A stretch of DNA of 42,293 nt from Candidatus Azophilus lithoversatilis (GTDB lineage: Bacteria > Pseudomonadota > Gammaproteobacteria > Pseudomonadales > Azotimanducaceae): NCBI GenBank assembly GCA_028278675.1, contig JAQAJJ010000046.1:1-42293 (forward strand), read 5' to 3'. The notes below the pieces were generated by a model. The model was not told the DNA's origin. It ran no database searches and worked only from the letters and a program-made list of their open reading frames with translations. This document shows positions 11,328-31,099 of the stretch, one piece after another; positions within the stretch are counted from its first letter, which is position 1, and every line of letters starts with the position of its first letter. The position numbers and the translations under genes are program-made.

Positions 11328-11780
11328 TTGAGTTGCTTGGCGTTGCCGTTCACCCCTGATGTGCTGTATGAGGGCTTCATCGCGCTGTTGCGCGATGACG
11401 GCCGCATGTCGGCTCGAGAATCGTCCTCCACCGTTCGCAAACGCATCCGCAGCATGGAGCAGGCGGGCATCATGCGGGTGGTGGCGGTCACCGACTTTGC
11501 GGCGGCAGGCTTCGATCTGCTGCTGGCCATCGGCATCGAGGTGGAAAATCGCAATGCTGAGGCCGTTGGCCGGGAACTGGCGGAATTGCCCGAGGTGTTT
11601 TCCGTCAACCTCACCACGGGTCCCAACGACTTGGAGATACTGGTGGCTGCCCAGTCCTTCGAGCAACTCGCGACCTTTCTGCACGAAGAAGTGTCCCAAG
11701 TGGATGGCATTGGGCGCTTGACGCCGGCGCTCACGGTCGAGGTGTACAAGTATCAATCGGAGTACGTGCCCCAACTATGA
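11328..11780 (+). CDS. Lrp/AsnC-type regulator with a shortened HTH
   Basis: An about 150-residue Lrp/AsnC-like protein. The C-terminal effector half (VAVTDFAAAGFDLLLAIGIE, LPEVFSVNLTTGPNDLEILV) is normal. The N-terminal HTH is not: after LLRDDGRMSARE it goes straight to SSSTVRKRI, whereas its neighbour has seven more residues between the matching Arg-Glu and Thr-Val-Arg. So 21 bp, most of the second HTH helix and the turn, are missing without a frameshift. The start is uncertain: TTG 11328 is the farthest, and there is no clear ribosome site. Its stop overlaps the next gene as ATGA. It could still dimerise with that neighbour through the effector domain but probably binds DNA poorly. Decay or an evolved partner subunit are both possible. 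Confidence 0.7.
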   Translation: MSCLALPFTPDVLYEGFIALLRDDGRMSARESSSTVRKRIRSMEQAGIMRVVAVTDFAAAGFDLLLAIGIEVENRNAEAVGRELAELPEVFSVNLTTGPNDLEILVAAQSFEQLATFLHEEVSQVDGIGRLTPALTVEVYKYQSEYVPQL

Positions 11781-12256
11781 CCCAGCGCAAGCTCGATGAT
11801 GTGGACCGGCGCATACTCACCTACCTCGCTGAGGATGCGCGCCTGAGCAACCGCGAGGTCGCCCAGGCCCTGGGGCTCGCGGAGGGCACCGTGCGCGGGC
11901 GCATCAAGCGCCTTCAGGATCGCGGCATGATCAAGATCACCGCGGTGACCCGATTCTCCGGCCCCGGCGCGCCTGTCATGGCCTACATCGGCGTGCGCGC
12001 CGACCTGCATCGGATCGCCGAGACCGCCCAAGCCATTGCCCGCCTGCCTTTTGTCCGCTTCGCCGCCACCATATTGGGCCGCTACGACATCCTGGCAATC
12101 ACCGTCGTGGAGGACGGCGCGGAATTGGTGCGCTTGGTCAACGACGAAATCATGCCGCTGGCCGGCGTGCGGCACGCGGAGACCACGCTGGCCGTGAAGA
12201 ACCTGAAGTACGACTACCGCTGGGGCCGCATCATCGACCCCGATGCGACGCCCTGA
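11777..12256 (+). CDS. Lrp/AsnC family transcriptional regulator
   Basis: A complete 159-residue regulator. Residues 6-60 are the winged HTH (LDDVDRRILTYLAEDARLSN, REVAQALGLAEGTVRGRIKR), followed by the RAM effector domain (GRYDILAITVVEDGAELVRL is the family block). Such proteins form octamers and respond to amino acids or other small acids. The ATG overlaps the stop of the previous lrp gene by ATGA, so the pair is co-translated; tandem Lrp pairs can form mixed oligomers. It converges on the SDR gene at 12324. It is the only intact DNA-binding regulator next to the steroid locus, since no KstR-like TetR gene is present in the window, so it is a candidate regulator of that locus; this is inference. 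Confidence 0.88.
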   Translation: MTQRKLDDVDRRILTYLAEDARLSNREVAQALGLAEGTVRGRIKRLQDRGMIKITAVTRFSGPGAPVMAYIGVRADLHRIAETAQAIARLPFVRFAATILGRYDILAITVVEDGAELVRLVNDEIMPLAGVRHAETTLAVKNLKYDYRWGRIIDPDATP

Positions 12257-12323: not shown

Positions 12324-13097
12324 TCAATCGTCTCGCCGAAGGCGGGGCGCGTCCTGGGCGAAGGTCAGGAAGCTGGGTGGCTCGCCGCCGCCGAACACTT
12401 CGAGGGAGGCGCCGGAAACGTATGAGGCGGCGTCGGAGGCCAGATAGAGGCAGGCGTTAGCGATGTCTTCGGCGGTGCCCATACGTTTGGCCGGCAGCTT
12501 GTCCTCGATGGCGGCGAGACCATGCTCGCCACCGTAGTGCTCATCGGCCGCATCGGCGGAGGTCTTGATGAGGCCGGCGATGATGGCGTTGACCCGCACG
12601 TCGGGACCCCACTCCTGGGCGAGGGAGGCGGTGGCGGACAGCAAGCCCGCCTTGGCCGCTCCGTAGGCCACTGTGCCGGGCGACGGTCGGATGCCGGAGA
12701 CGCTGGCGATGTTGATGATGGACCCCTTGGCGTCCTTGAGGGCGGGATGGGCCTTTTGGCTGACCAGCAGGGGCGCAAGCAGATTCAACCGGATGATGGC
12801 CTCGGTGAAGCGCGGCGAGACGGTCGCGGCGTCCGCCGCCGGGCTGCCGCCGGCGTTGTTGACCAAGATGTCGAGCCGTCCCGACCGATCAAGCACCGTG
12901 TCGATCAGGCGTTGCACTTGGTCCGCGTCACGCACGTCGGCTTCAATGAACTCGGTGTTCTCCTCCGCCTCGCCGGGCGCATTGCGTGCGCAGGCAAACA
13001 CCTTGGCGCCGCAGTCGAGGAAGGCACTGACGATGCCGCGCCCGATGCCGCGGCTGCCGCCGGTGACCAGCACCACCTTGTCGTTGAATCTCGGCAC
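12324..13097 (-). CDS. Short-chain dehydrogenase/reductase (SDR)
   Basis: A classical SDR of 257 residues. Motifs: TGGSRGIG (12-19) for NAD(P), NNAGG (80-84), and a catalytic set Ser132, Tyr145, Lys149 (IASVSGI, AYGAAKAG). The C-terminus has the usual LYLASDAASYVSGASLEVFGG. I set the start at GTG 13097, which has AGGAGG five bases upstream; a longer reading from 13325 would add about 76 residues with no homology. It is transcribed away from hsaA from a shared 284-bp intergenic region, which ties it to the steroid locus. A 3- or 17-hydroxysteroid dehydrogenase role is plausible but the sequence does not settle the substrate. Confidence 0.85.
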   Translation of the reverse strand: MPRFNDKVVLVTGGSRGIGRGIVSAFLDCGAKVFACARNAPGEAEENTEFIEADVRDADQVQRLIDTVLDRSGRLDILVNNAGGSPAADAATVSPRFTEAIIRLNLLAPLLVSQKAHPALKDAKGSIINIASVSGIRPSPGTVAYGAAKAGLLSATASLAQEWGPDVRVNAIIAGLIKTSADAADEHYGGEHGLAAIEDKLPAKRMGTAEDIANACLYLASDAASYVSGASLEVFGGGEPPSFLTFAQDAPRLRRDD

Positions 13098-13230
13098 GTC
13101 GCCTCCTAGCGCTTGATACAAGCCCTCAACTCGCTCCAGCATGTCAGGTCGCTGAGGGAAAAGGAACAACCAGCCGCCCGCGTGGAAGGCTCCACACACA
13201 TATATACAGAGCATGGATTTTGTTTCAAAC

Positions 13231-13301
13231 TTGCTGATAGCGCAACCAAATGGCGGGCTGGCTCCCAGTTTGCGTAGAACCAGCTCGATTGATTTGCGCA
13301 A
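13231..13301. promoter_or_regulatory. Possible operator sites between the SDR and hsaA
   Basis: In the divergent region between the SDR gene and hsaA are two TTGC/GCAA inverted repeats: TTGC-N7-GCAA at 13231-13245 and the perfect palindrome TTGCGCAA at 13294-13301, with a TTGCG half-site at about 13270. Position suits a regulator of both transcripts. There is no match I recognise to a named operator, and short palindromes arise by chance in this base composition. Confidence 0.25.
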
Positions 13302-13381
13302 GAGTGGCCCTGTGAAGGTGGACACACTGCCCCTACTATGGGACCATCGAATGCAATCGGCGCACGTTTTTCGAATCTGAA

Positions 13382-14548
13382 ATGTCTAAATCGACCCCGG
13401 CAGCGATCGGTATCTGCGAGCCTCAAGCGCTTGATATCGAACCCCATCTGCCCCTGATCGCCTCACTCGCGGCTGAGGGCCGGGCCAACCGCCAAGTCAA
13501 ACGGGAAGCCATTGAGGCCATCATGGAATCCGGCTTCATGCGCGCCCTGCTGCCCAAACCTTGGGGCGGCTTGGAAGCGACCCCGCAAGACTTCTTTCGG
13601 GCCCATTTGCGCATCGCCGAACAGGACATGAGCACCGCCTGGGTGGCGGGCATCATCGCTGTGCACGCCTTTCAGCTTGCCATCATGAATCGTCAGGCGC
13701 TCGACGACGTGTATGCTGAGGGTCCGAACACCTTGATTTCGAGTTCCTACAATCCCGTTGGTGCCAAGGTGGAGGCTGCCGAGGGAGGCTTCATGCTCAG
13801 CGGCCGCTGGGGCTGGAGCTCGGGCTGCGAGCACTGCACCTGGGTGTTGCTGGGGGGCATCGTTCCCGGCGAGGACTATCGCACTTTTTTGGTGCCGCGC
13901 AGGGACTATCGAATTGAAGACACCTGGTTTGTCTATGGCTTGCAAGCCACTGGCTCCAACGACATCGTCATCGAGCAGCCAGTGTTCGTCCCCGAACACC
14001 GCACCCACAAGCGCCTGGATGGCTTTAACTGCGTCCACTCCCAGGACAACCCCATGTATGGCATTCCCTGGGCGCAGATGTTCGTGCGCGTGGTTTCCAC
14101 CCCGGCCATCGGCGCGGCGCGTCATGCGGTGGCGGCGTTCGCCGGCAAGGCCGCCGGCAGCAGCACCGATCCGACCAAGCTGCAGGGCGACCCGGACATC
14201 ACTCGGCGGGTGGCCCAAACCCTCAACGACGTTGATCAGGCCCAGGCCGTGCTGTTCCGCAACTTTGACCGCATGATGGCGAGCATGCAGGCCGGTGAGT
14301 CATTGGATCTGATGGATCGGGTGCGTTGGCGCTATCAGGCCAGCCTCATCATCGACGACATGACCCGCGCCGTGGACCGGCTCTTCGAAGTGGCCGGTGG
14401 CCGCAGTGTGTTCAACGAATCCGCCATTCAGGACATCTGGCGCGACATCCGCGTTGCCCGCGCCCATGTGGCCAACAACCCAACGGCCTTTGCCCGCAAC
14501 TACGGGGCAATGGCGCTGGGGGCCGACAACAGCGACGCCTTTGTTTGA
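13382..14548 (+). CDS. hsaA: 3-HSA 4-hydroxylase, oxygenase component
   Basis: Flavin-dependent two-component monooxygenase of the acyl-CoA dehydrogenase fold (388 residues). HsaA (TesA2 in Comamonas) hydroxylates 3-hydroxy-9,10-secoandrostatrienedione to the catechol 3,4-DHSA, with reduced flavin supplied by a separate reductase. Evidence is the block LSGRWGWSSGCEHCTWVLLG (about 140-159), LVPRRDYRIEDTW, then GLQATGSNDIVIEQPVFVPE, all characteristic of HsaA/group D hydroxylases, plus a C-terminal helix bundle ending FARNYGAMALG. It is first in the co-directional steroid row; hsaD follows 8 bp later. The reductase gene hsaB is not in the window. The start ATG 13382 has only a weak ribosome site (GAATCTGAA). 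p-Hydroxyphenylacetate-type hydroxylases are relatives, but the neighbours decide for the steroid role. Confidence 0.88.
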   Translation: MSKSTPAAIGICEPQALDIEPHLPLIASLAAEGRANRQVKREAIEAIMESGFMRALLPKPWGGLEATPQDFFRAHLRIAEQDMSTAWVAGIIAVHAFQLAIMNRQALDDVYAEGPNTLISSSYNPVGAKVEAAEGGFMLSGRWGWSSGCEHCTWVLLGGIVPGEDYRTFLVPRRDYRIEDTWFVYGLQATGSNDIVIEQPVFVPEHRTHKRLDGFNCVHSQDNPMYGIPWAQMFVRVVSTPAIGAARHAVAAFAGKAAGSSTDPTKLQGDPDITRRVAQTLNDVDQAQAVLFRNFDRMMASMQAGESLDLMDRVRWRYQASLIIDDMTRAVDRLFEVAGGRSVFNESAIQDIWRDIRVARAHVANNPTAFARNYGAMALGADNSDAFV

Positions 14549-14556
14549 GAACAGTC

Positions 14557-15399
14557 GTGGCGAGCGCTGAGCAGGGTGGCCCACCACGCGGGAAAACCGT
14601 CGAATCGGCGGGTTTGACGCTGCACTATCACGACCATGGGGCCGCAGGCAGCAACGGTCGGGTGGTGGTGTTCGTGCATGGGAGCGGCCCCGGTGCCAGC
14701 GGTTACAGCAACTTCAAGCTGAACGCCCCCGTCCTTGCCGAAGCGGGCTACCGCGTGGTCGTGCCTGACTTGCCCGGTTTCGGGTACTCCTCGAAGCCGG
14801 TTGACATCGACTACACCACGGACTTCTTCGTTGCACACCTGATCGGCCTGCTGGATGCCCTCGGCATCGAGCGCTGTGCGTTGGTGGGCAATTCCCTGGG
14901 CGGCGCCGTCTGCATCCGCGCCGCCCTGGATCATCCCGAGCGGGTCGAGAAGCTGGTGCTGATGGCGCCCGGCGGCATCGAGGAGCTCGACACCTACATG
15001 GCGATGCCGGCGATGGCCCGCATGATCGCCAACTTCACCAGCGGCGCCCTGGACCGCAACGGCTTGCGGCAAATCCTGCAAACGCTGGTGTTCGATCCGG
15101 TGGTGGTGACCGATGCGCTGGTCAATGAGCGCTACGCCATCGCTCAAACCCAGCCGCCGGAAGTGCTTGGACGCATGCGCATTCCCAACATGGAGGGTGA
15201 ACTGGGCGGCATCACCTGCCCGGTGCTGGCGTTTTGGGGCATGGACGATGAGATGCTGCCCCCCGGCGGCGGGCACAAGATTCTCGAGGCCTGCCGTCCC
15301 AGCCGGTTGGTCGAGGTGGCGGAATGCGGGCACTGGGTCATGGTGGAGCATGCCCGCATGTTCAACGCTGCCTGCCTCGACTTTCTGGATAACGACTGA
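14557..15399 (+). CDS. hsaD: DSHA C-C bond hydrolase (meta-cleavage product hydrolase)
   Basis: An alpha/beta hydrolase of 280 residues. HsaD (TesD) splits the ring-A meta-cleavage product 4,9-DSHA into HIP and a C5 dienoate. Visible: HGSGPGASG oxyanion region (41-49), nucleophile GNSLGG with Ser113, Asp231 in WGMDDEMLP and His259 in CGHWVMVEH. The GPGASG loop and the overall length are typical for meta-cleavage hydrolases such as HsaD/BphD. The GTG at 14557 gives the expected N-terminus and sits 8 bp after hsaA; no ATG is available in frame before the core. The stop is followed at once by the triple 87-bp repeat, which separates it from hsaC. Confidence 0.9.
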   Translation: MASAEQGGPPRGKTVESAGLTLHYHDHGAAGSNGRVVVFVHGSGPGASGYSNFKLNAPVLAEAGYRVVVPDLPGFGYSSKPVDIDYTTDFFVAHLIGLLDALGIERCALVGNSLGGAVCIRAALDHPERVEKLVLMAPGGIEELDTYMAMPAMARMIANFTSGALDRNGLRQILQTLVFDPVVVTDALVNERYAIAQTQPPEVLGRMRIPNMEGELGGITCPVLAFWGMDDEMLPPGGGHKILEACRPSRLVEVAECGHWVMVEHARMFNAACLDFLDND

Positions 15400-15403
15400 T
15401 GGA

Positions 15404-15648
15404 AGCCCTTAGCTTGCCCCGGAACGGCACGCCGTTGACAGCGAAGGAACAACCCGCCAGTCGCTGGGCTGTCTCCATTTGTTCCATGAAAGCCCTTAGC
15501 TTGCCCCAGAGCGGCACGCCGCTGACATCGAAGGAACAACTTGTTCCATGAAAGCCCTTAGCTTGCCCCAGAGCGGCACGCCGCTGACATCGAAGGAACA
15601 ACCCGGCAGCCGCTGGGCTGTCTCCATTTGTTCCATGAAAGCCCTTAG
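15404..15648 (-). repeat. 87-bp dispersed repeat, tandem array B (three units)
   Basis: Direct tandem copies starting with AGCCCTTAGC on the plus strand: 15404-15490 (87 bp), 15491-15552 (62 bp, an exact 25-bp internal deletion) and 15553-15639 (87 bp), then the first nine bases of a fourth. The core AGCGGC-GT-GCCGCT (minus strand) is a perfect hairpin in two units, and each unit carries TTGTTCC and GGAACAA as an inverted pair. The array begins four bases after the hsaD stop and ends ten bases before the hsaC ATG, in the middle of the steroid row. Confidence 0.95.
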
Positions 15649-15657
15649 GTAGCGGTA

Positions 15658-16557
15658 ATGACCATTTCAGCACTGAGTTACGTGCGGCTTGAAATGCGGG
15701 ATCCATCCGAGTGGCAGCGATTTGGCGAGCAGGTGCTGGGCTTCGCCGGCCGGCCCGCTGAAAACTGTGCCGTGCGCGGCACCCTGTGCTTGGCCATGGA
15801 TGCCATGCCCTTCCGCTATCTCATCGAGCCGGGCGATGCCGACCGCTTTGCCGCCGCCGGTTGGGAATGCGCCGACGCCGATGCCTATGGCCATGTAGTG
15901 GGTGCCTTGCAGGAGGCTGGCGCGCTAGTGCGCCTTGGAACCGATGTCGAGGCGGGGTCCCGAGGCGCTGCAGACTTGGCCTTCGGCGTGGACCCCTCCG
16001 GCAACGCCTTCGAGCTTTGCCACGGCCGCACCTCGAACGACGCTTCGTTCAACTCGCCCATCGACGGGTTGCGCTTCGTTACCGGCGCCATGGGCTTGGG
16101 CCACGCCGTGCTGCCGGCGCCCGAATTCGCGGCCACCGACGCCTTCTATCGTGACGTGCTCGGCTTCGGCGTCAGCGACGAACTGACGCTGCCACCGCCG
16201 GCGGAGGGCGCACCGGAGCAGCGCATTCACTTCCTGCACGCCGACAATCCCCGCCATCACAGCGTCGGCCTTTGCAACTTTCCCGCGCCGAACGGGGTGG
16301 TGCATCTCATGGCGGAGGTGGACTCCCTGGACAACGTGGGTGCCTGCCTTGATCGTGCCAAGGCGGCTGAAGCCCCGATCGTGGCGAGCCTCGGCCGACA
16401 CCTAAACGACGGCATGGTGTCCTTCTACATGCTCGCCCCAGGCGGTATCCCGATTGAATATGGCTACGACGGACGCCAGTTCGATTGGAGCGTCTTCGAG
16501 CCGACTCGCAGCACCGTGGGCGACATCTGGGGCCATGAGTACAACTTCCCGGGTTGA
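15658..16557 (+). CDS. hsaC: 3,4-DHSA extradiol dioxygenase (ring-A cleavage)
   Basis: A two-domain VOC-fold extradiol dioxygenase of 299 residues. HsaC (TesB) opens the catechol 3,4-DHSA by meta cleavage with Fe(II). The active C-terminal domain shows His149 (MGLGHAVLP), the RHHSVGLC motif (His200/His201) and Glu267 in GGIPIEYGYDG, the 2-His-1-carboxylate set of the BphC family, with FLHADN contributing the acid-base His. Order hsaA, hsaD, hsaC is kept close, though the tandem repeat lies before it. The ATG at 15658 is ten bases from the repeat array and has a weak site (GGTAGCGG), so translation may depend on the transcript context. Confidence 0.9.
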   Translation: MTISALSYVRLEMRDPSEWQRFGEQVLGFAGRPAENCAVRGTLCLAMDAMPFRYLIEPGDADRFAAAGWECADADAYGHVVGALQEAGALVRLGTDVEAGSRGAADLAFGVDPSGNAFELCHGRTSNDASFNSPIDGLRFVTGAMGLGHAVLPAPEFAATDAFYRDVLGFGVSDELTLPPPAEGAPEQRIHFLHADNPRHHSVGLCNFPAPNGVVHLMAEVDSLDNVGACLDRAKAAEAPIVASLGRHLNDGMVSFYMLAPGGIPIEYGYDGRQFDWSVFEPTRSTVGDIWGHEYNFPG

Positions 16558-16578
16558 GTGGGCTGGGGCCAGCGCCGC

Positions 16579-17454
16579 ATGAACAAGACCTGCGCCATCG
16601 CGGACATCGCCAATGCCATCGAGTCCGGCATGACCTTGGGCATTGGCGGCTGGGGCGGCCGGCGCAAGCCCATGGCCGTCATTCGGGAACTGCTCAAGAC
16701 CGACGTGCGGGGGTTGACCATCATCAGCTATGGCGGTCCGGATGTCGGCATGCTGGCGTCGGCGGGAAAAATCGCCAAGCTGGTGTTCGGCTTTGTTTCC
16801 ATGGACCTGGTGCCTTTGGAGGCGCACTTTCGGGCCGCCCGCCAAGCGGGTGCCTTCGAAGTGATGGAACTCGACGAAGGCATGCTGCAGCTCGGCCTCA
16901 AGGCGGCCGCCGCGCGGCTGCCGTTCCTGCCCACCCGGGTCGGGTTCGGCTCCGACGTGTTGAGCGCCAATCCGGAGATCAAGACCATCGCCTCGCCCTA
17001 CGCGGATGGCGAGACCCTGGTGGCGATGCCGGCGCTGCCGATTGACGTGGCGGTCTGCCACGTTAATGAAGCCGACGAGTTGGGCAACTCGCGCATCACC
17101 GGGCCGGACCCCTTCTTTGACGAGTGGCTGTGCCGGGCCGCCGGCCAAGCCTTCCTCACCACCGAAGCGCTGGTCGATGCAGACGCCTTCAATGACCCGT
17201 TGACCGCCTTGCAGATGCCGATCGAGCGATCCTTGGTGCAGGGTGTGGCGCCAGCGCCATGGGGCGCCCATCCGACTTCCTGCGGGCCGAAGTACGGCAT
17301 GGACGTCGAGCATCTGCGCGTCTACTCAGCGGCTGCCAAGGGCGGCTGGACGGATTACCTTGAACGCTACATTCTCGGCAAGGATCTGCCGGCCTACTTG
17401 TTGGAAGTCGGCGGTCCCGAAGCGGTCGGCGCCCTGCCGTTGCCGGTGTTTTGA
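16579..17454 (+). CDS. ipdA: Steroid ring-opening CoA-transferase-fold hydrolase, alpha subunit
   Basis: IpdA pairs with IpdB to form the COCHEA-CoA hydrolase that opens the last steroid ring; the fold is that of class I CoA transferases. The 291-residue protein has the strongly conserved opening GMTLGIGGWGGRRKPMAVIR, then ISYGGPDVGMLASAGK, LDEGMLQLGLKAAAARLPFL and ALPIDVAVCHVNEADELGN. These match the Mycobacterium IpdA pattern (GWGxRRKPM and EGML-GL-AAA-RLPFLP) rather than ordinary 3-oxoacid CoA-transferases. I chose ATG 16579 over GTG 16558, seven codons earlier. It lies 21 bp after hsaC and 10 bp before ipdB. Confidence 0.9.
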   Translation: MNKTCAIADIANAIESGMTLGIGGWGGRRKPMAVIRELLKTDVRGLTIISYGGPDVGMLASAGKIAKLVFGFVSMDLVPLEAHFRAARQAGAFEVMELDEGMLQLGLKAAAARLPFLPTRVGFGSDVLSANPEIKTIASPYADGETLVAMPALPIDVAVCHVNEADELGNSRITGPDPFFDEWLCRAAGQAFLTTEALVDADAFNDPLTALQMPIERSLVQGVAPAPWGAHPTSCGPKYGMDVEHLRVYSAAAKGGWTDYLERYILGKDLPAYLLEVGGPEAVGALPLPVF

Positions 17455-17464
17455 GGCTACGCTG

Positions 17465-18250
17465 ATGAGCGGCTACAGCTTGGCGGAACTGTGCATCTGC
17501 AGCGCTGCGGAGGCCTTTCGGGGCGACGGTGAGGTGCTGGCCACCAGCATCGGCTTGGTGCCGCGCTTGGGCGCCGGGCTCGCCAAGCTGACCTTCGAGC
17601 CGGGGCTCATGATCACGGATGGCGAAGCCTATCTGGTGCGGGAGCCGGTGCCGGTGGGGCCGCGCGGGGACTACCGGCCCAAGATAGAGGGGTTGATGAC
17701 TTACGAGCGGGTTTTCGATCTCATCTACAAGGGCAAGCGCCACGCCATGGTGACGCCGGTGCAGGTGGACCGCTTTGGGCAGATGAACATCTCCATCATC
17801 GGCGATTACGAGCGGCCCAAAACGGCCTTGCTGGGCGTTCGCGGATATCCGGGCAACACCATCAGCAACGCCAATTCCATGTTCCTGCCGCAGCACACAA
17901 CGCGCGCCTTCGTGGCGGGCGAGGTGGATATGGTCGGCGGCATCGGCTACAACCCAACCCGTTGGCCGAATGGCCAACAGCCCAAGCATCTGGACTTGCG
18001 CCGCATCGTCACCAATCTGGCGGTCATGGACTTCCAAGGACCGAACCACGCCATCCGCGTCATCAGCCTGCACCCGGGCGTGAGCTTCGACGAGGTGCAG
18101 GACAACACGGGCTTCGAGCTTGCGGCGGTGCCCGAGCTTTCGACCACACCCGCGCCGACCAACACGCAGCTTACGCTCATTCGCGAACGCTTGGATCCCC
18201 ACGGCCTGCGCGCCGGCGCCATCCCCGGCAATCCGCCGGGGGTTCGTTGA
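17465..18250 (+). CDS. ipdB: Steroid ring-opening CoA-transferase-fold hydrolase, beta subunit
   Basis: Beta subunit of the COCHEA-CoA ring-opening hydrolase, 261 residues. It begins MSGYSLAELCICSAAEAFRG and has GEVLATSIGLVPRLGAGLAK, LMTYERVFDLIYKGKRHAMV, then VDRFGQMNISIIGDYERPK and LGVRGYPGNTISNANSMFLP, the blocks of IpdB-type proteins. Together with ipdA it forms a heterotetramer in the known cases. Translation is probably coupled to ipdA (10-bp gap) and to ipdC (8 bp). Nothing odd in length or motifs. The main alternative, a generic CoA-transferase beta subunit, is made unlikely by the neighbouring hsa and ipdC genes. Confidence 0.9.
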   Translation: MSGYSLAELCICSAAEAFRGDGEVLATSIGLVPRLGAGLAKLTFEPGLMITDGEAYLVREPVPVGPRGDYRPKIEGLMTYERVFDLIYKGKRHAMVTPVQVDRFGQMNISIIGDYERPKTALLGVRGYPGNTISNANSMFLPQHTTRAFVAGEVDMVGGIGYNPTRWPNGQQPKHLDLRRIVTNLAVMDFQGPNHAIRVISLHPGVSFDEVQDNTGFELAAVPELSTTPAPTNTQLTLIRERLDPHGLRAGAIPGNPPGVR

Positions 18251-18258
18251 GGCAGCCG

Positions 18259-19431
18259 ATGGACGCGCTTGCCAACGCGCTCACCACTCGGGCCACCGAG
18301 CGATTGGGCTGCCGTTACCCGATCGTGCAAACCGCCATGGGCTGGGTTTCCACTTCCGCCTTGGTCACTGCCAGCGTTCGCGCTGGGGCGTTTGCCTTTC
18401 TCGCCTGCGCGGTCATGACGCCGGAAGAGGCCGAGGGCGAGGTTCGCACCGTACTCGATGCGGTTGACGGACCCTTCGGCGTCAATTTCCACGGCTTTCA
18501 GCCGGGCGCGGAACGCATCGCCGATTTGGTCATTGACCACGGGGTCCGGGCGGTCAGCTACGGACGTGCCCCATCGCCAAAGCTGATCGACAAGCTGAAG
18601 GCGGCAGGGGTGCTCTGCGTGCCCACCATCGGTGCCGGCAAGCACGCCGGCAAGGCGGTTGAACTCGGGGCGGACCTGATCGTCTGCCAAGGCGGCGAGG
18701 GTGGTGGCCACACCGGGGTGACGCCGACTTTGCTGTTGCTCGCCGAGACCCTCGATGCGGTGCAAGTGCCGGTCCTCGCCGCGGGTGGCTTCCGGGATGG
18801 GCGGGGGCTGGCGGCGGCGTTGGCCTTCGGTGCCGACGGCATTGCGATGGGCACCCGCTTCATGCTCACGTCGGACAGTCCGACGCCAGCCGCCACCAAG
18901 GCGCGTTACCTGGCGGCCGAGGTCAACCAGATTCCGGTCAGCGCCAAGCTGGATGGCTTGCCGCAGCGCATGTTGATGAACGAGACGCTGGCCCGGCTGG
19001 AACGGGCCGGCAGCCTGTCGATGGCGGTTCGGGCGCTGGCCAACGGTTGGCGCTACCGCTCTGAAACGGGTGCCTCGGTCCTGGCGCTGGTGAAATCGGC
19101 TTGGGCGATGACGCGAGGCGGCGAGCTCACGCTCTCCCAAGCGATGATGGCGGCCAATGCGCCGATGATCATCAAGAAGGCCATGGTCGAGGGCGATCCG
19201 GCGCAGGGGGTGCTGCCCAGCGGCCAAGTGGCGGGGCTGATCGATGATCTGCCAAGCTGTGATGAACTGGTCTCAGGTCTCGTTGCGGATGCCCGACAAC
19301 GCATCGCCAGTTTGGCGGAGGCCGATTCAACAGATCGCAACGGGAGTCTTTCGTCGAACACAGGGAGGCAGCCCGGAAACAGCCCGGCTGTTCCGTCGCC
19401 GTCAGCAGCGCACCGGTCTGGGACAAGCTAA
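18259..19431 (+). CDS. ipdC: NMO-family flavin reductase/oxidase of HIP degradation, repeat-extended C-terminus
   Basis: FMN-binding TIM-barrel protein of the nitronate monooxygenase / 2-nitropropane dioxygenase family. IpdC acts on 5-hydroxy-HIC-CoA-type intermediates in the last-ring branch. Motifs: CRYPIVQTAMGWVSTSALV (about 18-36), GEGGGHTG for FMN phosphate, VLAAGGFRDGRGLAAALAFG and ADGIAMGTRFM. It is 390 residues. The conserved part ends near residue 355 (ARQRIASLAEA); the last about 25 codons (from NTGRQPGNS) are read from a diverged 87-bp repeat, and the TAA stop lies inside the repeat. So the repeat appears to have replaced or extended the natural C-terminus. ATG 18259 is 8 bp after ipdB. 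Confidence 0.88.
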   Translation: MDALANALTTRATERLGCRYPIVQTAMGWVSTSALVTASVRAGAFAFLACAVMTPEEAEGEVRTVLDAVDGPFGVNFHGFQPGAERIADLVIDHGVRAVSYGRAPSPKLIDKLKAAGVLCVPTIGAGKHAGKAVELGADLIVCQGGEGGGHTGVTPTLLLLAETLDAVQVPVLAAGGFRDGRGLAAALAFGADGIAMGTRFMLTSDSPTPAATKARYLAAEVNQIPVSAKLDGLPQRMLMNETLARLERAGSLSMAVRALANGWRYRSETGASVLALVKSAWAMTRGGELTLSQAMMAANAPMIIKKAMVEGDPAQGVLPSGQVAGLIDDLPSCDELVSGLVADARQRIASLAEADSTDRNGSLSSNTGRQPGNSPAVPSPSAAHRSGTS

Positions 19432-19434
19432 GGG
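19356..19434 (+). repeat. 87-bp dispersed repeat, diverged copy C
   Basis: Aligns without gaps to most of the 87-bp unit: GAACACAGGGAGGCAGCCC, GGCTGTTCCGTCGCCGTCAG, TCTGGGACAAGCTAAGGGAG correspond to consensus GAACAAATGGAGACAGCCC, GGTTGTTCCTTCGGCGTCGG, TCTGGGGCAAGCTAAGGGC. Roughly 70-75% identical by eye. It supplies the ipdC stop (TAA 19429-19431), and its end AAGGGAG lies five bases before the echA20 ATG as a good Shine-Dalgarno sequence. Confidence 0.75.
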
Positions 19435-19441
19435 AGTTATC

Positions 19442-20248
19442 ATGCCGTTTGAAGTGGAAGTCCGCGAACGCATCGGCGAGATCATCTTCAATCATCCGCC
19501 GGTCAACGCCTTCGACTCCCGGATGTGGCTGGAACTGCCGGGCATCATCCACGACTTGGCGGAGCGGCCGGACGTGCGCTGCCTGCTCATCCGCGCCGAA
19601 GGCCGGGGCTTTTGCGCCGGGGTGGACATCAAGGAACTGCAGGCAAATCCGCAGCGCATCGTCGAGGTGAACCGAGGCAACTTCCTAAGCTACCAAGCAG
19701 TGCATCGCTGTGAAGTGCCGGTTGTGGCAGCCCCGCACGGTTTTGTGCTCGGCGGCGGCATCGGCGTTTGCGGCGCCAGCGACGCCATCATCGCCGCTGA
19801 CGACGCCTATTTCGCGCTCCCGGAAATCGACCGCGGCGCCATGGGCGGTGCCGCCCACATGCAGCGCTTCCTGCCCCATGCCAAGGTGCGCGCCGCGTTC
19901 CTCACCGGCGGGCAGGTTTCCGCCGAGGAGGCTTGGCGCCTCGGTGGGGTGGAGCGGGTGTTGCCGCGCAATGAGCATGGGGCGGCCGCCCGAGAGTTTG
20001 CTGCCGTGATCGCCTCCAAGAGCCGCGATGCGCTGCGCATCGCCAAGCAGGCGCTGAACGGCATCGAGGCCTTCGACGTGGACCGCGCCTATCGCTGGGA
20101 GCAGGGCTTCACCTTCGAGATGTACATGCACGACGACTCGCAATCGGCTAGGGATGCGTTTGTTGACACCGGCGGCGCGGCCGAGTTCGGCAGCGAATCC
20201 CAAGGCGGTGACGCCGAACCAATCCAGGAAACAGGGAAGGAATCATGA
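19442..20248 (+). CDS. echA20: Crotonase-family HIEC-CoA ring hydrolase
   Basis: A 268-residue crotonase. EchA20 opens ring D of HIEC-CoA in the last-two-rings pathway, a hydrolase activity on an enoyl-CoA hydratase fold. Motifs: RGFCAGVDIKELQ (oxyanion hole), HGFVLGGGIGVCGASD, and ALPEIDRGAMGGAAHMQRFL, where the PEIDRGAMG block resembles EchA20 more than a usual hydratase (which has a Gly-rich PGGGGTQRL). Pro/Glu of ALPEIDRG keeps the acidic residue. The Shine-Dalgarno AAGGGAG in front of ATG 19442 is part of repeat copy C. It overlaps fadA6 by ATGA. The C-terminal about 20 residues are acidic and likely disordered. Confidence 0.87.
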   Translation: MPFEVEVRERIGEIIFNHPPVNAFDSRMWLELPGIIHDLAERPDVRCLLIRAEGRGFCAGVDIKELQANPQRIVEVNRGNFLSYQAVHRCEVPVVAAPHGFVLGGGIGVCGASDAIIAADDAYFALPEIDRGAMGGAAHMQRFLPHAKVRAAFLTGGQVSAEEAWRLGGVERVLPRNEHGAAAREFAAVIASKSRDALRIAKQALNGIEAFDVDRAYRWEQGFTFEMYMHDDSQSARDAFVDTGGAAEFGSESQGGDAEPIQETGKES

Positions 20249-21396
20249 CCGAGGCCTACATCATCGATGCGCTGCGCACGCCCACCGGACGGCGTCGGGG
20301 TGGATTGGCGGAAATGCACCCGGCGGATCTAGGTGGGCTGGCGCTGAAGGCGCTCGTTGCGCGCAACGCCGTGCCCGCCGACGACTATGAGGACGTGCTG
20401 TTCGGCTGCGTGGACACCATCGGTCCCTTGGCGGGCGACATCGCCCGCACCTGCTGGCTGGCCGCGGGGCTGCCCCTGCATGTACCGGGGGTAACCATCG
20501 ACCGTCAATGCGGCTCCTCCCAACAAGCGGTGCACTTTGCCGCTCAGGCCGTGATGAGCGGCACCAACGACGTGGTGGTGGCCGGCGGTGTGCAGACGAT
20601 GTCGCAGATCCCGATTTCCGCCGCCATGCTGGCGGGCCCGGCCCACGGATTCGGCGACCCCTTCACCGGTTCGCCCGGCTGGGTGGCCCGCTTCGGCGAT
20701 GGCTTGGTCACGCAATTCAACTCGGCGGAGATGATTGCCGAAAAGTGGGGCTTGTCCCGCTTGGACATGGAGCGGTTCGCGCTGACCTCCAACGAGCGCG
20801 CCTGCCACGCCATCGACACGGGCCGTTTTGCACGCGAGATCGTGCCGGTCAACGGGGTGGCCGACGACGAAACGCCGCGCCGGGGAACGAGTCTCGAGGC
20901 CATGGCTGGGCTTGAACCCTTGCAGCCCGGTGGCCGCATCACGGCGGCAGTGTCCAGCCAAACCTGCGATGCCGCCGCGGCGCTGCTGATCTGCTCGGAA
21001 GCGGCGGTGGCCCGCTACGGGCTCAAGCCGCGGGCTCGCATTCACCACATCAGCGTGTTGGCCGACGATCCCATCTGGATGCTGACCGCGCCCATGCCGG
21101 CCACCGAGCGGGCGCTGCGAAAAACCGGCATGAGCATTGACCACATCGACCGCGTGGAGATCAACGAGGCCTTCGCTCCGGTGGTGATGGCTTGGTTGGC
21201 CGAAACCGGTTGCGACCCGGAGCGGACCAACGTCAATGGCGGCGCCATCGCCTTGGGCCATCCGCTGGGCGCCACCGGGGCCAAGCTCATGACCACCCTG
21301 CTGCACGAACTCGAGCGCAGCGAGGGGCGCTTTGGCCTGCAGACGATGTGCGAAGGCGGCGGACAGGCCAACGTCACCATCATTGAGCGCCTTTAG
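20245..21396 (+). CDS. fadA6: Thiolase of the HIP-CoA branch
   Basis: Acetyl-CoA acyltransferase of 383 residues, the thiolytic step after ring opening (FadA6 in Mycobacterium). Nucleophile Cys lies in DRQCGSSQQAV (about 90), with EINEAFAPV, GGAIALGHPLGATGAK (His) and the second catalytic Cys in MCEGGGQANVTI. Start ATG 20245 overlaps the echA20 stop (ATGA), so the two are translated together, and the SDR ipdF follows 11 bp later. A general thiolase is the alternative, but position between echA20 and ipdF supports the steroid role. Length is normal. Confidence 0.87.
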   Translation: MTEAYIIDALRTPTGRRRGGLAEMHPADLGGLALKALVARNAVPADDYEDVLFGCVDTIGPLAGDIARTCWLAAGLPLHVPGVTIDRQCGSSQQAVHFAAQAVMSGTNDVVVAGGVQTMSQIPISAAMLAGPAHGFGDPFTGSPGWVARFGDGLVTQFNSAEMIAEKWGLSRLDMERFALTSNERACHAIDTGRFAREIVPVNGVADDETPRRGTSLEAMAGLEPLQPGGRITAAVSSQTCDAAAALLICSEAAVARYGLKPRARIHHISVLADDPIWMLTAPMPATERALRKTGMSIDHIDRVEINEAFAPVVMAWLAETGCDPERTNVNGGAIALGHPLGATGAKLMTTLLHELERSEGRFGLQTMCEGGGQANVTIIERL

Positions 21397-21407
21397 AGGC
21401 TACCGCC

Positions 21408-22193
21408 GTGGCTGATTTTTCGTTGCCTCCGGACTACCCGCCAGGCCACGATCTGCTGCGCGGCCGGCGGGTCCTGATCACTGCTGCGGCGGGCACCGGG
21501 ATCGGATTCGCAGCGGCTAAACGCTGCGTGGAGGAGGGCGCTTCGGTGCTGATCTCCGACATCCACCCCGCCCGGTTAACCGAGGCCGCAGCTCGCTTGG
21601 AGGCACTGGCGAAGGGACGCGTGGTGGCCCAACGCTGCGACGTGACGGTTCAGGAAGACGTGGACGCGCTCTTCGCGGCTGCGGAGCAGGCTTTCGGCGC
21701 AATGGACGTGGTGATCAACAACGCGGGCCTCGGCGGCACGGCCGATTTGGTGGACATGACCGACGCGCAGTGGGCCAAGGTGCTGGACGTGACCTTGACC
21801 GGCACCTTCCGCATGACCCGTGCGGCGATGCAGGCTATGCGCGGTACCGGCGGCGTGATCGTCAACAACGCTTCCGTGCTCGGCTGGCGGGCGCAGAAGG
21901 GCCAAGCCCATTACGCCGCGGCCAAGGCAGGCGTGATGGCCTTGACCCGTTGCGCCGCTTTGGAGGGTGCGGACCTCGGCATCCGCGTCAACGCCGTTGC
22001 GCCCAGCCTGGCGATGCACCCCTTCCTTGCCAAAGTGACCACCGAGGCCTTGCTCAACGAGCTTGAAGCCAAGGAAGCCTACGGACGACCTGCTGAGGTT
22101 TGGGAAGTGGCCAACGTGATGGTCTTTCTGGCCAGCGACTACGCGTCCTACATGACCGGAGAGACCCTCTCCGTTTCCAGCCAGCGAGCGTAG
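21408..22193 (+). CDS. ipdF: SDR of HIP-CoA degradation
   Basis: A 261-residue SDR like Rv3559c/IpdF, which oxidises a hydroxyl on the HIP-CoA side-chain/ring intermediates. The diagnostic block is LITAAAGTGIGFAAAKRCVE (about 25-44), in which the usual TGxxxGIG is AAAGTGIG, preceded by a long N-terminal segment (LPPDYPPGHDLLRGRRV). NNAGLGG, NNASVLGWRAQKGQAHYAAAKAG give the Ser-Tyr-Lys set. The start is GTG 21408 after GAGG. It is the last gene of the row: a T tract (CTTTTT at about 22228) follows, but the stem before it is poor. The TonB receptor on the other strand ends 47 bp downstream. Confidence 0.85.
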   Translation: MADFSLPPDYPPGHDLLRGRRVLITAAAGTGIGFAAAKRCVEEGASVLISDIHPARLTEAAARLEALAKGRVVAQRCDVTVQEDVDALFAAAEQAFGAMDVVINNAGLGGTADLVDMTDAQWAKVLDVTLTGTFRMTRAAMQAMRGTGGVIVNNASVLGWRAQKGQAHYAAAKAGVMALTRCAALEGADLGIRVNAVAPSLAMHPFLAKVTTEALLNELEAKEAYGRPAEVWEVANVMVFLASDYASYMTGETLSVSSQRA

Positions 22194-22240: not shown

Positions 22241-25200
22241 TTACTGGCTCATCCGGTAAGTGACGCTGAACTTGAACATGCGCCCGAACGGGTTGTGGCT
22301 GAAGGCGTCGTAATTCATTTCGCGGCCAGTGAAGGGCGGGTCCTCATCCGCAAGGTTGATCGCCGAGAGCGACAGGCTGACCTGATCATCCATGAGGCTG
22401 TAGTTCAGATGCAGGTCGTGGGTTATGTGGCTTTTGATGTCCGTCACCCCGGATGGGTTGCCGGCCAAGTCATCGTAGCCGTCGATGTAGTTGAGGTTGT
22501 AACGCAGGTTCATCGGACCAATGGCGTAGTTGACGATGCCGCGGCCTTTCCACTTCGCCAAGGTGCGCGCCAGGGAGGTTCCGTAGTTGTACCGGCCGAG
22601 GGCGTCGTAGGCGTCGCCGAGCACCCATGAATCAATGTCGTAGCTCAGGATGCGGGTGCCGGTAACCCCAACGCTGGCGATGCCGGGACCAACTGGCAGA
22701 CTGTAGCGGGCGGTGAAGTCGATGCCGTCGGTTTCGGTGTCGGGTCCGTTGACGAGCTGGATGTCGATGATCTCTAGGTTCGCCGCCGCCGCATTGCCGC
22801 CGAAGGTCAGGCGGGAGAAGTAGGGACTGGCCGGGTCGCAGGGATCGGTCGGCCCACCGGGGCAGGCTGCCGCGAGAACATTGGTGAAGGGTTCCGTCAC
22901 GAGCGGTTTCTTGAAGTCGTATGACCAGTAGTCCAATGTGACGAAAACATTGTCGGTGTCCCCGATTAGGCCGTCGTGATCGACGAGCAGGCCCACGTTG
23001 AAGGTGGTGGCCTCTTCAGGCTCGAGATTGGGGTTGCCTTGAGTGTCAACGCGCTTGAACGCACCCGTCTGGCCGACGAACTGCAGCGAGTTGGACGAGG
23101 CGGAGGCGACGATTTGGTTCAGCGTCGGCCCGCGGAAGGTGGTGCCCACCGAAGCGCGCATCGCGATGCTTGGCAGCAGCTGCCAACGCACCGCGAGTTT
23201 GGGGTCGAGGCTGGAGCCTGCGGAGCCGCCGTAGTCCTCATAGCGCACCGACAATTGCGCCTCGACCGTTTCCGCCAAGGTGGCGTGGAGTTCGCCAAAC
23301 ACTGAGTAGATGTCCCGGTCCTCGTCGATGTGGGAGCCGGGTGGCAGGAAGCCGAACAAGCCGTTGCGATTGCTGGTGCAGTCCTTGATTTCCGGTCCGG
23401 CGGCGCAGGGGAAGAGCGAGAAATCATTCAACTCATAGGGGCCGGACTCGTAGGTTTCGCTTCGCCATTGGGTGCCGACCGCGAAACTCAATTCGTTGCC
23501 GGCCAGCGTCCACGGCAAGGCGCCAGTGAGAATGCCCTCCAGCACCAACAGCGACGCCTTTCCGTCGCCGCCATGCGGCGACAGCATGTAGTCGAGCAGC
23601 GCTTGGTTGTTCAAGTCGGGATTGAAATCGGGATTTTCCGCGATGCCGCCCGGCACCTGGGGATGGGAGCCGGGCATGGAATTGGAGAATGGAATCCAGT
23701 AGCGGCATGGCCCTTGGCCGGCATTGGCCATGACGGTGTCCAGGGAAAACGCCAGGTTGCCGTTCTCGTCGTACTCATTGGGCACCATGGCTTCGCACTC
23801 GTGTCCGCCGAGGCCTTGTCGGGCACGGGCGTCGCGATAGACCATGGTGTCGCCGCCGTCAAAGTCCCGTTCGGACTGGGAATAGGTGGCGGAAGTCGTC
23901 CAGCCGTAGTCTCCGAGGTCGCCGTCCAACGTGAAGTTCAGCCGCCACAGGTCGGATTTGCGGTGATGGTCGCGAAGCGGGCCATCCTGACCGTAGTAGC
24001 GGCCGTAGAACCAAGCCACATCCTGCCAGGCAGCAGGGATGCCGGCATCCGTCTGGGCGGGGTCGCCCTGCCAGCGGCAGTAGTCCGCATCGCACCAGGC
24101 GTAGTCGCCGTAGATGTCGGGGTACCTGCTGGCCATGTCCACCAAGCCCGGGTTGTTGGCGCGGATGGTGCGGTTTTCGTCCACCAGCCGGTTGGGCGGG
24201 TAGGATGGGGAGGTGTTCCAGCCGGGCACGTTGCTGTCAGTGATCAAAAACTCGCCGGTCAAGGTGATGCTGTCACTGACCTCCCATGATCCTTCCGTGA
24301 ACCACTGCCAGCGCTCCGCTTCCTCGGAAATGTTGTCGAACGCCGTGTACTGGAAGCGACAGAAACCACCGCCGGTGTTGCCGGCCACGCCGGCCGTGGT
24401 AATCGCGCCGCCAAGCTTCTCGCAGTTGGGATCGACGATGCCCGTTGCCAGTAGGCCGGTGAAGCCGCCGATGGGAAATGCGTTCCACCGATCCAAGGGC
24501 ACCACGACGGAAGGCCGGCCGACGCTCGACCAGCCACCGCCGGGGCTGTCGGCGTAGGGTCGCACGGCCCAATCCCGCTCGGACAGCTCAAGTTCGCCGC
24601 GTTTGATGTAGCTGAAGGAGCTTGCGATGTGGCCGCGGCCGTCAGCGAAGTCGGTGCCGACGATTACGCCCGCTTCGGTGTCGCCGCTGGAGTCCTCGAT
24701 GGTCTTATGGTTGGCGGACACTTCAAAGCCAGTGAAGTCGCTGCGGGTGATGAAGTTCATCACCCCGGCGATGGCGTCCGAACCGTAGGTGGCGGCTGCG
24801 CCATCACGCAGGATCTCAATCCGTTCCACGGCGATGGAAGGCATCATGTTCACGTCCACCAGCAATTGCGCCTGCGCACCGATGGCGTGGGGCGACCAAG
24901 TGGTGCGACGACCGTTGATGAGAACCAGCGACCGGCTGGGACCGAGTCCGCGAATGTTGACCGTGGCTCGGTCGGCGCCGGCGCCAGCCTGAAACTGGTC
25001 GGTTTCGCCGTCAGCCCCTTGGCTGAACGACAGGTTCTTGATCAGGTCCAACGTGGTGGGCGACCCTTCCAACGCCAAGTCGTTCCGGGTGAGCGCGGTC
25101 ACCGGCAAGGGCGCGTCCTCCGGCGTGCCCTTGATGTAGGAGCCGGTCACCAGAATTTCCTCGATTTCGCCGTCGGCGGCGAAACCGTGCCCCGCAACGG

Positions 25201-25255
25201 CGAGCAACGGCAGCATGAGACAGGTAGCCAAACGGCTTGAGAATGGTTGATTCAC
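22241..25255 (-). CDS. TonB-dependent outer membrane receptor, intact
   Basis: A 1,004-residue receptor. Signal peptide to about residue 27 (ATCLMLPLLAVAGHGFAAD), TonB-box-like EEILVTGS (32-39), plug domain with VNIRGLGPSRSLVLINGRR and VERIEILRDGAAATYGSDAI, and a long beta-barrel ending NPFGRMFKFSVTYRMSQ. I prefer GTG 25255, with GGAGG and five bases before it, over the GTG at 25261. It is a paralogue of the frameshifted receptor at 7035, with the same GSYIxGTPED segment. The extended periplasmic N-terminus of a sigma-regulating transducer is absent. The gene lies head-on to the steroid row and is divergent from an acyl-CoA dehydrogenase, so a steroid or other lipid substrate is likelier than a siderophore, but the sequence does not prove it. 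Confidence 0.92.
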   Translation of the reverse strand: MNQPFSSRLATCLMLPLLAVAGHGFAADGEIEEILVTGSYIKGTPEDAPLPVTALTRNDLALEGSPTTLDLIKNLSFSQGADGETDQFQAGAGADRATVNIRGLGPSRSLVLINGRRTTWSPHAIGAQAQLLVDVNMMPSIAVERIEILRDGAAATYGSDAIAGVMNFITRSDFTGFEVSANHKTIEDSSGDTEAGVIVGTDFADGRGHIASSFSYIKRGELELSERDWAVRPYADSPGGGWSSVGRPSVVVPLDRWNAFPIGGFTGLLATGIVDPNCEKLGGAITTAGVAGNTGGGFCRFQYTAFDNISEEAERWQWFTEGSWEVSDSITLTGEFLITDSNVPGWNTSPSYPPNRLVDENRTIRANNPGLVDMASRYPDIYGDYAWCDADYCRWQGDPAQTDAGIPAAWQDVAWFYGRYYGQDGPLRDHHRKSDLWRLNFTLDGDLGDYGWTTSATYSQSERDFDGGDTMVYRDARARQGLGGHECEAMVPNEYDENGNLAFSLDTVMANAGQGPCRYWIPFSNSMPGSHPQVPGGIAENPDFNPDLNNQALLDYMLSPHGGDGKASLLVLEGILTGALPWTLAGNELSFAVGTQWRSETYESGPYELNDFSLFPCAAGPEIKDCTSNRNGLFGFLPPGSHIDEDRDIYSVFGELHATLAETVEAQLSVRYEDYGGSAGSSLDPKLAVRWQLLPSIAMRASVGTTFRGPTLNQIVASASSNSLQFVGQTGAFKRVDTQGNPNLEPEEATTFNVGLLVDHDGLIGDTDNVFVTLDYWSYDFKKPLVTEPFTNVLAAACPGGPTDPCDPASPYFSRLTFGGNAAAANLEIIDIQLVNGPDTETDGIDFTARYSLPVGPGIASVGVTGTRILSYDIDSWVLGDAYDALGRYNYGTSLARTLAKWKGRGIVNYAIGPMNLRYNLNYIDGYDDLAGNPSGVTDIKSHITHDLHLNYSLMDDQVSLSLSAINLADEDPPFTGREMNYDAFSHNPFGRMFKFSVTYRMSQ

Positions 25256-25402
25256 AGACACCTCCCCAGCAGTGCGAATTGTCGGATTTTCAATGCAAAT
25301 TTGCCCGTTGGCACGGACGAGGCCACTATGGCCTTGTTATTTTGCGAATGCAATAAGATGCGCGGCGAACGGCACTTTCTTTTGCGGATTGAGCCCCGCA
25401 CA

Positions 25403-30926: not shown

Positions 30927-31099
30927 TTCCATGGAGCAAATGGAGACAGCCCCGCGGCTGGCGGGTTGTTCCTTCGGCGTCGGCGGCGTGCCGTTCTGGG
31001 GCAAGCTAAGGGCTTCCATGGAACAAACGGAGACGCTCCCGCCGCGGCACGGTTGTTCCTTCGGCAACAGTGGCGCGTCGCACTGGGACAGGACACTAG
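30927..31099 (+). repeat. 87-bp dispersed repeat, array D (one full, one decayed unit)
   Basis: The first unit, from the ATG at 30931 to the next ATG at 31018, is exactly 87 bp and nearly identical to copy A; the second (31018-31099) keeps ATGGAACAA, GGTTGTTCCTTCGGC and GGGACAGGACACTAG but is diverged in between. Both are open in the same frame, with a continuous reading from 30931 to 31173. It lies upstream of the vapBC-like pair. Confidence 0.9.

Follow-up and report, generated by a model that had tools for sequence, protein, structure and literature searches.

A predicted steroid ring-cleavage operon in Candidatus Azophilus lithoversatilis and the apparent loss of FadE30 and FadE31 from its lineage

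The genome of Candidatus Azophilus lithoversatilis (Pseudomonadales; Azotimanducaceae) carries nine consecutive genes for the opening of steroid rings A/B and the breakdown of the last two rings, C and D. Very probably, this row forms the central operon for aerobic steroid breakdown by the 9,10-seco route, in a lineage in which the acyl-CoA dehydrogenases FadE30 and FadE31 have been lost and another dehydrogenase pair substitutes. The stretch analyzed (the window) is the entire contig JAQAJJ010000046.1, 42,293 bases long, which is contig C46 of a 3.77 Mb genome in 104 contigs (assembly GCA_028278675.1). Below, this genome is designated G000, other G numbers denote related genomes, L numbers loci, and C numbers contigs of G000. 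Steroid degraders among the Gammaproteobacteria, marine and sponge members included, are already known (PMC5790920), and the row would add one further genus to them. The loss, consistent in nine genomes with the enzymes acting before and after it retained, would amount to a natural knock-out, implying either that other enzymes are able to carry out the FadE30 and FadE31 steps or that ending the pathway early can be useful. Both outcomes bear on the essentiality of FadE30 and FadE31 in other steroid degraders.

The gene row and its protein families

The row occupies positions 13382-22193 of the + strand; each of the nine genes was found with an open reading frame, and their order is that given by a first-pass annotation made from the sequence:

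13382-14548, + strand: hsaA, oxygenase subunit of the 3-HSA 4-hydroxylase (NCBIfam NF045629; PDB 3afe/2rfq)
14557-15399 (GTG start), + strand: hsaD, meta-cleavage product hydrolase (NCBIfam HsaD; S113-D231-H259)
15402-15637, no strand: 87-base repeat, about 2.7 units
15658-16557, + strand: hsaC, extradiol dioxygenase (NCBIfam HsaC; PDB 2zi8)
16579-17454 (alternative GTG start at 16558), + strand: ipdA, predicted COCHEA-CoA hydrolase alpha subunit (PDB 6co6_A)
17465-18250, + strand: ipdB, predicted COCHEA-CoA hydrolase beta subunit (PDB 6co6_B)
18259-19431, + strand: ipdC, FabK/NMO-type flavoenzyme, its 3′ end entering a repeat copy at 19356-19434 (Pfam NMO; PDB FabK)
19442-20248, + strand: echA20, predicted crotonase-fold ring-D hydrolase (NCBIfam PRK07938; position in the row)
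20245-21396, + strand: fadA6, thiolase, joined straight to echA20, without an intervening dehydrogenase pair (NCBIfam PRK07801)
21408-22193, + strand: ipdF, short-chain dehydrogenase/reductase (SDR) (NCBIfam PRK07831; PDB 3o38)

Successive intergenic distances are 8, 258, 21, 10, 8, 10, -4 and 11 bases. The small gaps or ATGA overlaps described earlier hold for the gaps of 8-21 bases and for the sole ATGA overlap (-4), at the echA20/fadA6 junction, but not for the 258-base gap between hsaD and hsaC, which contains the 87-base repeat. The motifs attributed to the products are likewise in place: the predicted catalytic residues of HsaD are S113, D231 and H259, the HsaC iron ligands H149, H216 and E267 align with the H/H/E of PDB chain 2zi8, and the GGWGGRRKPM block of IpdA starts at residue 23.

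HsaA scores 312.1 bits with NCBIfam NF045629 (cut-off 450), the runner-up, an aromatic family, reaching 203.5, and its best PDB matches are the steroid chains 3afe and 2rfq. HsaC reaches 254.1 bits with the NCBIfam HsaC model (cut-off 450) against 231.6 for BphC, and in the PDB 230.7 bits with 2zi8 against 152.4 with 1han, while HsaD reaches 195.8 bits with its own model (cut-off 400) against 171.6 for BphD. The two CoA-transferase-like subunits are much more clearly separated: IpdA scores 256 bits with PDB 6co6_A against 84 for glutaconate CoA-transferase, and IpdB 211.1 bits with 6co6_B against 60. EchA20 (PRK07938, 323.8 bits, cut-off 260), FadA6 (PRK07801, 678.7 bits, cut-off 591) and IpdF (PRK07831, 428.2 bits, cut-off 336; PDB 3o38, 305.6 bits) all exceed their NCBIfam cut-offs. 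We take these three models to be the EchA20, FadA6 and IpdF families, and 2zi8, 3afe and 6co6 to be HsaC, HsaA and IpdAB of Mycobacterium tuberculosis, with 3o38 presumably a mycobacterial IpdF. The steroid reading of the first-pass annotation stands on these comparisons: HsaA and HsaC best match steroid enzymes, and IpdA and IpdB lie far above other CoA transferases. IpdC (Pfam NMO, 227.5 bits; PDB FabK, 153.9 bits) is named by fold family and position only, and a FabK/NMO fold is what the available text of PMC5380842 leads one to expect for it.

Pathway genes on other contigs

Genes that are kshA-like and kstD-like, together with hsaB and fadD3, were found on other contigs of G000, as the first-pass annotation had suggested looking for. 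KshA_C-family oxygenases occur at six places, three of them on C13 and one of the six weak (26.7 bits), and KstD-like proteins are encoded on C13 and C34 (624 and 538 bits, under the cut-off of 789). HsaB on C47 scores 197.4 bits (cut-off 230), the best of seven families, and is the sole flavin-reductase match in G000. The hsaE, hsaG and hsaF genes lie on C58; HsaF is above its cut-off, and HsaE and HsaG are named by identity to G400 (HsaF 89%, HsaG 75%, HsaE 61% over 132 residues only), where hsaEGF lie between hsaD and hsaC. FadD3, at C17:91619, scores 793.6 bits with a profile of cluster-linked copies and 693.4 bits with the NCBIfam FadD3 model, above the cut-off of 657.

The KshA-like gene of C13 has counterparts 1.0 kb from hsaA-D-C in G369 (77% identity) and 2.6 kb from it in G373 (76%), and a KstD-like gene of C13 shares 70% identity with a member of the G373 cluster. 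These orthologues near hsaA-D-C therefore link the dispersed genes of G000 with the row, and with the kshA- and kstD-like genes, hsaB, hsaEGF and fadD3 on other contigs, a 9,10-seco pathway in G000 is well supported. The row itself had been called complete, which was too generous: hsaB, hsaEGF, kshA, kstD and fadD3 all lie elsewhere, and FadE30 and FadE31 orthologues were not found in the genus.

The genes, their families, their neighbourhood and purifying selection were observed here, and every reaction is inferred from Mycobacterium, Rhodococcus and Comamonas. By this analogy, KstD and KshA would act on a 3-ketosteroid to give the 9,10-seco phenol, from which HsaA with HsaB would make a catechol whose ring A HsaC would open. 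HsaD would release a C6 piece, to be finished by HsaE, HsaG and HsaF, and FadD3 would yield HIP-CoA, with its side chain shortened by one β-oxidation cycle. IpdF and IpdC would oxidize the product of that cycle, EchA20 would open ring D and IpdAB ring C, and release of acetyl-CoA by a thiolase, for instance FadA6, would leave MOODA-CoA. FadE30 would normally pair with FadE33 in the β-oxidation cycle, and FadE31 with FadE32 on MOODA-CoA.

Conservation and layout across relatives

The same nine genes, in the same order and with 56-96% identity per gene, occur in five other genomes (the congeners G375, G376, G370 and G374, and the family relative G400), with additional genes interspersed in the rows of G374 and G400; the row is therefore not a product of chance. 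The ratio of non-synonymous to synonymous substitution rates (dN/dS) against G370 is 0.058-0.156 for all nine genes, indicating purifying selection. Seven of the nine genus members keep hsaC, ipdA and fadD3, with HsaC and FadD3 both missing in G371 and G372. At an E value of 1e-20, the HsaC search matched 26 of the 58 genomes, BphC-type paralogues being among the matches. Across the class, IpdA matches were found in 9 of 369 genomes, five above 300 bits, G000 included. IpdA-like proteins also occur on plasmids, with 300 matching records, 132 of them covering at least 80% of the query, all below 60% identity; the closest are from Burkholderia, Caballeronia, Novosphingobium and Vibrio, in a list that will include other CoA transferases.

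According to the available text of PMC4810484, most steroid-degrading Proteobacteria have one cluster for all steroid genes, with ring A/B and ring C/D genes together. The layout of the row is not new and is ordinary for Proteobacteria. The first-pass annotation had treated the order as distinctive, a view that does not survive comparison with PMC4810484 and PMC13101464, as far as these sources were available; an unusual layout was likewise rejected on comparison with Comamonas and 70 related loci. In the gene-order survey, matches below 50% coverage were dropped, as were IpdF, EchA20, FadA6 and SDR matches below 42% identity.

Absence of FadE30 and FadE31

In 63 of the 70 related loci holding both echA20 and fadA6 (counted after dropping EchA20 below 42% and FadA6 below 55% identity), a FadE31-type gene lies between the two. 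They are adjacent, as in the window, in the other seven (L097, L098, L099, L101, L104, L113 and L114), which come from five congeners, one of them seen twice, and G400; the G373 stretch examined ends short of both genes. L098/L113 and L109/L159 are the same contigs counted twice, leaving at most 6 adjacent and 62 FadE31-holding distinct contigs. The intervening pair was identified as FadE31-FadE32 by gene count against locus tags 1277-1283 of Comamonas testosteroni CNB-2, and a table in PMC5380842 links FadE32 to MOODA-CoA. Naming the missing pair IpdE1-IpdE2 was rejected because IpdE1-IpdE2 is FadE30-FadE33.

Profile searches of 16 genomes gave the same picture genome-wide. A FadE31 orthologue was not found in the nine genus members or G400 (best at most 296 bits), with 678-731 bits in 6 of the 16 genomes, and a FadE30 (IpdE1) orthologue was not found in the same ten (best at most 311 bits), with 590-760 bits in 5 of the 16; G161 also has no FadE30, its best score of 346.7 bits being its FadE31 gene. 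The profiles recover the genes in genomes outside their training sets, at 678 and 731 bits for FadE31 (G017 and G411) and 590-760 bits for FadE30 (G017, G389, G419 and G411). All 40 dehydrogenase-family places of G000 except HsaA were scored (open reading frames of at least 250 residues), the best reaching 295.7 bits for FadE31 and 310.6 bits for FadE30. In a tree in which the FadE30 and FadE31 clades each have 100% ultrafast bootstrap support, some forks are open and C27 forms a long branch, none of ten G000 dehydrogenases falls inside either clade, and a second tree agrees. G369 and G374, both single contigs (96% and 98% complete), have neither gene. For FadE33 and FadE32, highly divergent families, local comparisons were made in G000 only; its C27 gene is 36.9% identical to Comamonas FadE33, compared with 39-43% for the 11 best other copies. 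The lineage thus seems to have lost FadE30, the partner of FadE33, and FadE31, the partner of FadE32. A search of titles and the beginnings of abstracts, with subscription papers mostly outside it, found no published report of such a loss.

Candidate substitute dehydrogenases

Several acyl-CoA dehydrogenase pairs in G000 are of alpha/beta composition. For the pairs on C57 and C17, the alpha subunits have PDB entries 4x28 and 6wy8/6wy9 (Tcur3483) as their best matches; we take 4x28 to be ChsE4-ChsE5. The C17 pair, at C17:100.2-102.5 kb, is about 7 kb from fadD3, and this linkage recurs over 5-7 kb in G370 and G375. Because the downstream-acting ipd genes are intact and under selection, another steroid-type dehydrogenase pair, the C17 pair near fadD3, would most likely carry out at least the FadE30-FadE33 step. 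Two genes beyond the row are also of interest:

25400-26635, + strand: PimC-like acyl-CoA dehydrogenase (TIGR03204, 350.5 bits, cut-off 623.85; outside the FadE30 and FadE31 clades in the trees)
26670-27407, + strand: enoyl-CoA hydratase adjoining the PimC-like gene (NCBIfam PRK06190, 198.1 bits, below the cut-off of 253)

The PimC-like dehydrogenase is 91-94% identical in G370, G375 and G376. It and a PimD-like gene located on C2 (422.9 bits; cut-off 652.7) may be further candidates for acting on MOODA-CoA. The beta subunit of another pair, on C27, is IpdE2-like, scoring 183 bits (cut-off 450) with a model that gives Comamonas FadE33 itself 163. That the genus runs a complete last-two-rings pathway, with the pre-existing steroid-type C17 and C57 pairs and a PimC/PimD-type dicarboxylyl-CoA dehydrogenase replacing FadE30-FadE33 and FadE31-FadE32, is a tentative proposal to which we give somewhat less than an even chance.

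Weighing the readings

Several observations weigh against a steroid operon with substituted dehydrogenases. HsaA, HsaC, HsaD, HsaB and the KstD-like proteins all score under the NCBIfam curated cut-offs, and their names therefore rest on best-match order and neighbourhood. HsaD is the weakest steroid assignment of the row and is ambiguous from its sequence, nearly tied with BphD, whose PDB score (158.7 bits) is slightly above that of HsaD (152.4). In the single-contig genome G369, the two halves of the row (hsaADC and ipdABC) lie about 1.4 Mb apart, at approximately 2.73 and 1.30 Mb, whereas single-contig G374 keeps them together. As to the substitutes, orthologues of the C57- and C17-type alpha subunits also occur in G389, which retains FadE30 and FadE31, and the C57 type is found in G371 and the C17 type in G372, both without HsaC and FadD3; the idea that the C17 and C57 pairs were gained as replacements is weakened by the G389 copies. 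G374 and G369 have no PimC-like gene beside ipdF.

The HsaD ambiguity, with BphD its best PDB match by 6 bits, and an HsaC lead over BphC of only 23 bits are what a biphenyl or other aromatic meta-cleavage operon followed by generic CoA enzymes would produce. However, IpdA, IpdB, EchA20, FadA6 and IpdF have no known role in biphenyl degradation and best match steroid-pathway families, and KshA- and KstD-like genes lie near hsaA-D-C in congeners. IpdA and IpdB do not have generic CoA transferases as their best matches, KshA_C-family and KstD-like genes are present in the genome, and HsaD alone is ambiguous; the biphenyl reading, which we rejected on the NCBIfam and PDB family matches, is extremely improbable. 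Alternatively, assembly gaps or marked divergence may have hidden dehydrogenases that are in fact present: of the nine genus genomes seven, G000 among them, are drafts, FadE32 and FadE33 belong to divergent families, and the tree has partly open forks and the long C27 branch. Yet the single-contig genomes G369 and G374 have neither gene, like the other seven, and the profiles recover genomes outside their training while all 40 dehydrogenase places of G000 except HsaA were checked, making this explanation very unlikely.

The consistent absence of FadE30 and FadE31 orthologues in nine of nine genus members could instead mean that the pathway is cut short, with HIP-CoA or MOODA-CoA made and an intermediate excreted, perhaps to a host or neighbour. 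According to the available text of PMC5380842, a M. smegmatis fadE32 mutant accumulates MOODA and still grows slowly on HIP. Were the pathway to end at the FadE30-FadE33 step, ipdABC, echA20, fadA6 and ipdF would be idle, yet all are under purifying selection; this selection does not argue against a stop at MOODA-CoA. We consider a truncated pathway unlikely overall. Alternatively, the pathway may serve a non-classical steroid or terpenoid, so that the first side-chain cycle needs other dehydrogenases. Several KshA-family oxygenases and 31 P450 matches, some of which are fragments of a single gene, in a genome of 3.8 Mb would suit such a substrate, but the usual later ring C/D enzymes imply the usual intermediates, and we regard this as distinctly unlikely. 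The preferred reading remains the steroid operon in which another pair stands in for the lost dehydrogenases.

Comparison with known systems

The tesB gene of Comamonas has scdL1L2 and the other ring C/D genes behind it, as described in PMC13101464. By the same source and the gene-order survey, a ring-A meta-cleavage gene is followed there by homologues of ipdAB, ipdC, echA20 and fadA6 in the order of the window. The window row differs in having hsaA and hsaD in front and ipdF straight after fadA6, and in having no scdN, FadE31-FadE32 pair or FadE30-FadE33 pair. The KstR2 regulon of M. tuberculosis, as given in the available text of PMC5380842, comprises ipdA, ipdB, ipdC, echA20, fadA6, ipdF, fadD3 and fadE30-33. 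It shares the ring C/D enzymes with the window, whose IpdA and IpdB have 6co6 as their best structure, whereas the window joins ring C/D to ring A/B genes in one operon, and FadE30 and FadE31 were not found. Regulation also appears different, with tandem Lrp/AsnC genes upstream of the row in place of the Tet-like repressor KstR2 of the actinobacterial regulon. Locus L103 of the family relative G389 resembles the window in its Lrp pair, SDR, hsaA, hsaD, hsaC, ipdAB, ipdC, echA20 and ipdF, in the same order, with fadA6 not seen in that stretch. Unlike the window, it carries hsaEGF in the hsaD-hsaC interval, a second crotonase separating ipdB from ipdC, and FadE31-FadE32 after echA20, with FadE30 about 23 kb away.

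Neighbouring genes and other features of the window

The genes flanking the row are as follows:

11328-11780, + strand: Lrp/AsnC-type regulator 1, matching the ligand-binding domain only (Pfam PF01037); same place in congeners
11777-12256, + strand: Lrp/AsnC-type regulator 2 (Pfam PF13404, PF01037); same place in congeners
12324-13325, - strand: oxidoreductase of the SDR family, oriented away from hsaA and probably starting further inside the listed frame (NCBIfam PRK07856, 355.8 bits, cut-off 255)
22241-25261, - strand: TonB-dependent receptor in one open reading frame (Pfam); G375 and G376 have a similar gene next to the row

Tandem Lrp/AsnC genes lie upstream of ipdA in 8 named loci outside the genus among 80, mostly from Halieaceae and other marine Gammaproteobacteria, and such a pair also occurs in the bile-salt cluster of Sphingobium Chol11 (available part of PMC12882949). 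The divergent SDR is kept beside hsaA in congeners. The receptor at 22241-25261 might be an uptake gene, and its membership of the pathway is a guess. A paralogue of it is split into a plug and a barrel open reading frame, at 7035-8258 and 8366-9898.

The 87-base (29-codon) repeat has at least 84 BLAST matches in G000, where scoring covered 40 of the 176 first-look candidates, and was not found in the congener loci examined. Copies lie at 15402-15637, 19356-19434, 2544-2627 and 30930-31090 of the window, and at L226:9459-9543 and L023:2781-2867. Its sites include the hsaD-hsaC gap, the 3′ end of ipdC, the space between hsaE and hsaG, and a position in frame within an SDR gene on C8. Several of its reading frames are open and its fold z-scores are weak (-1.8 and -0.66). 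With several open frames, it presumably resembles the Rickettsia palindromic elements.

An esterase of the hormone-sensitive-lipase family is encoded at 28091-29014 (NCBIfam LipP1, 398.5 bits, above the cut-off of 350); it scores 284.7 bits with the chloramphenicol hydrolase model, below the cut-off of 500. The 31 P450 matches of G000 are to Pfam, and the nine of its P450s scanned with NCBIfam received no steroid names. The P450 at 29033-29711 is a remnant with N- and C-terminal pieces in different frames and the middle missing, and open copies of it, of about 420 residues, are found in G370, G375 and G376.

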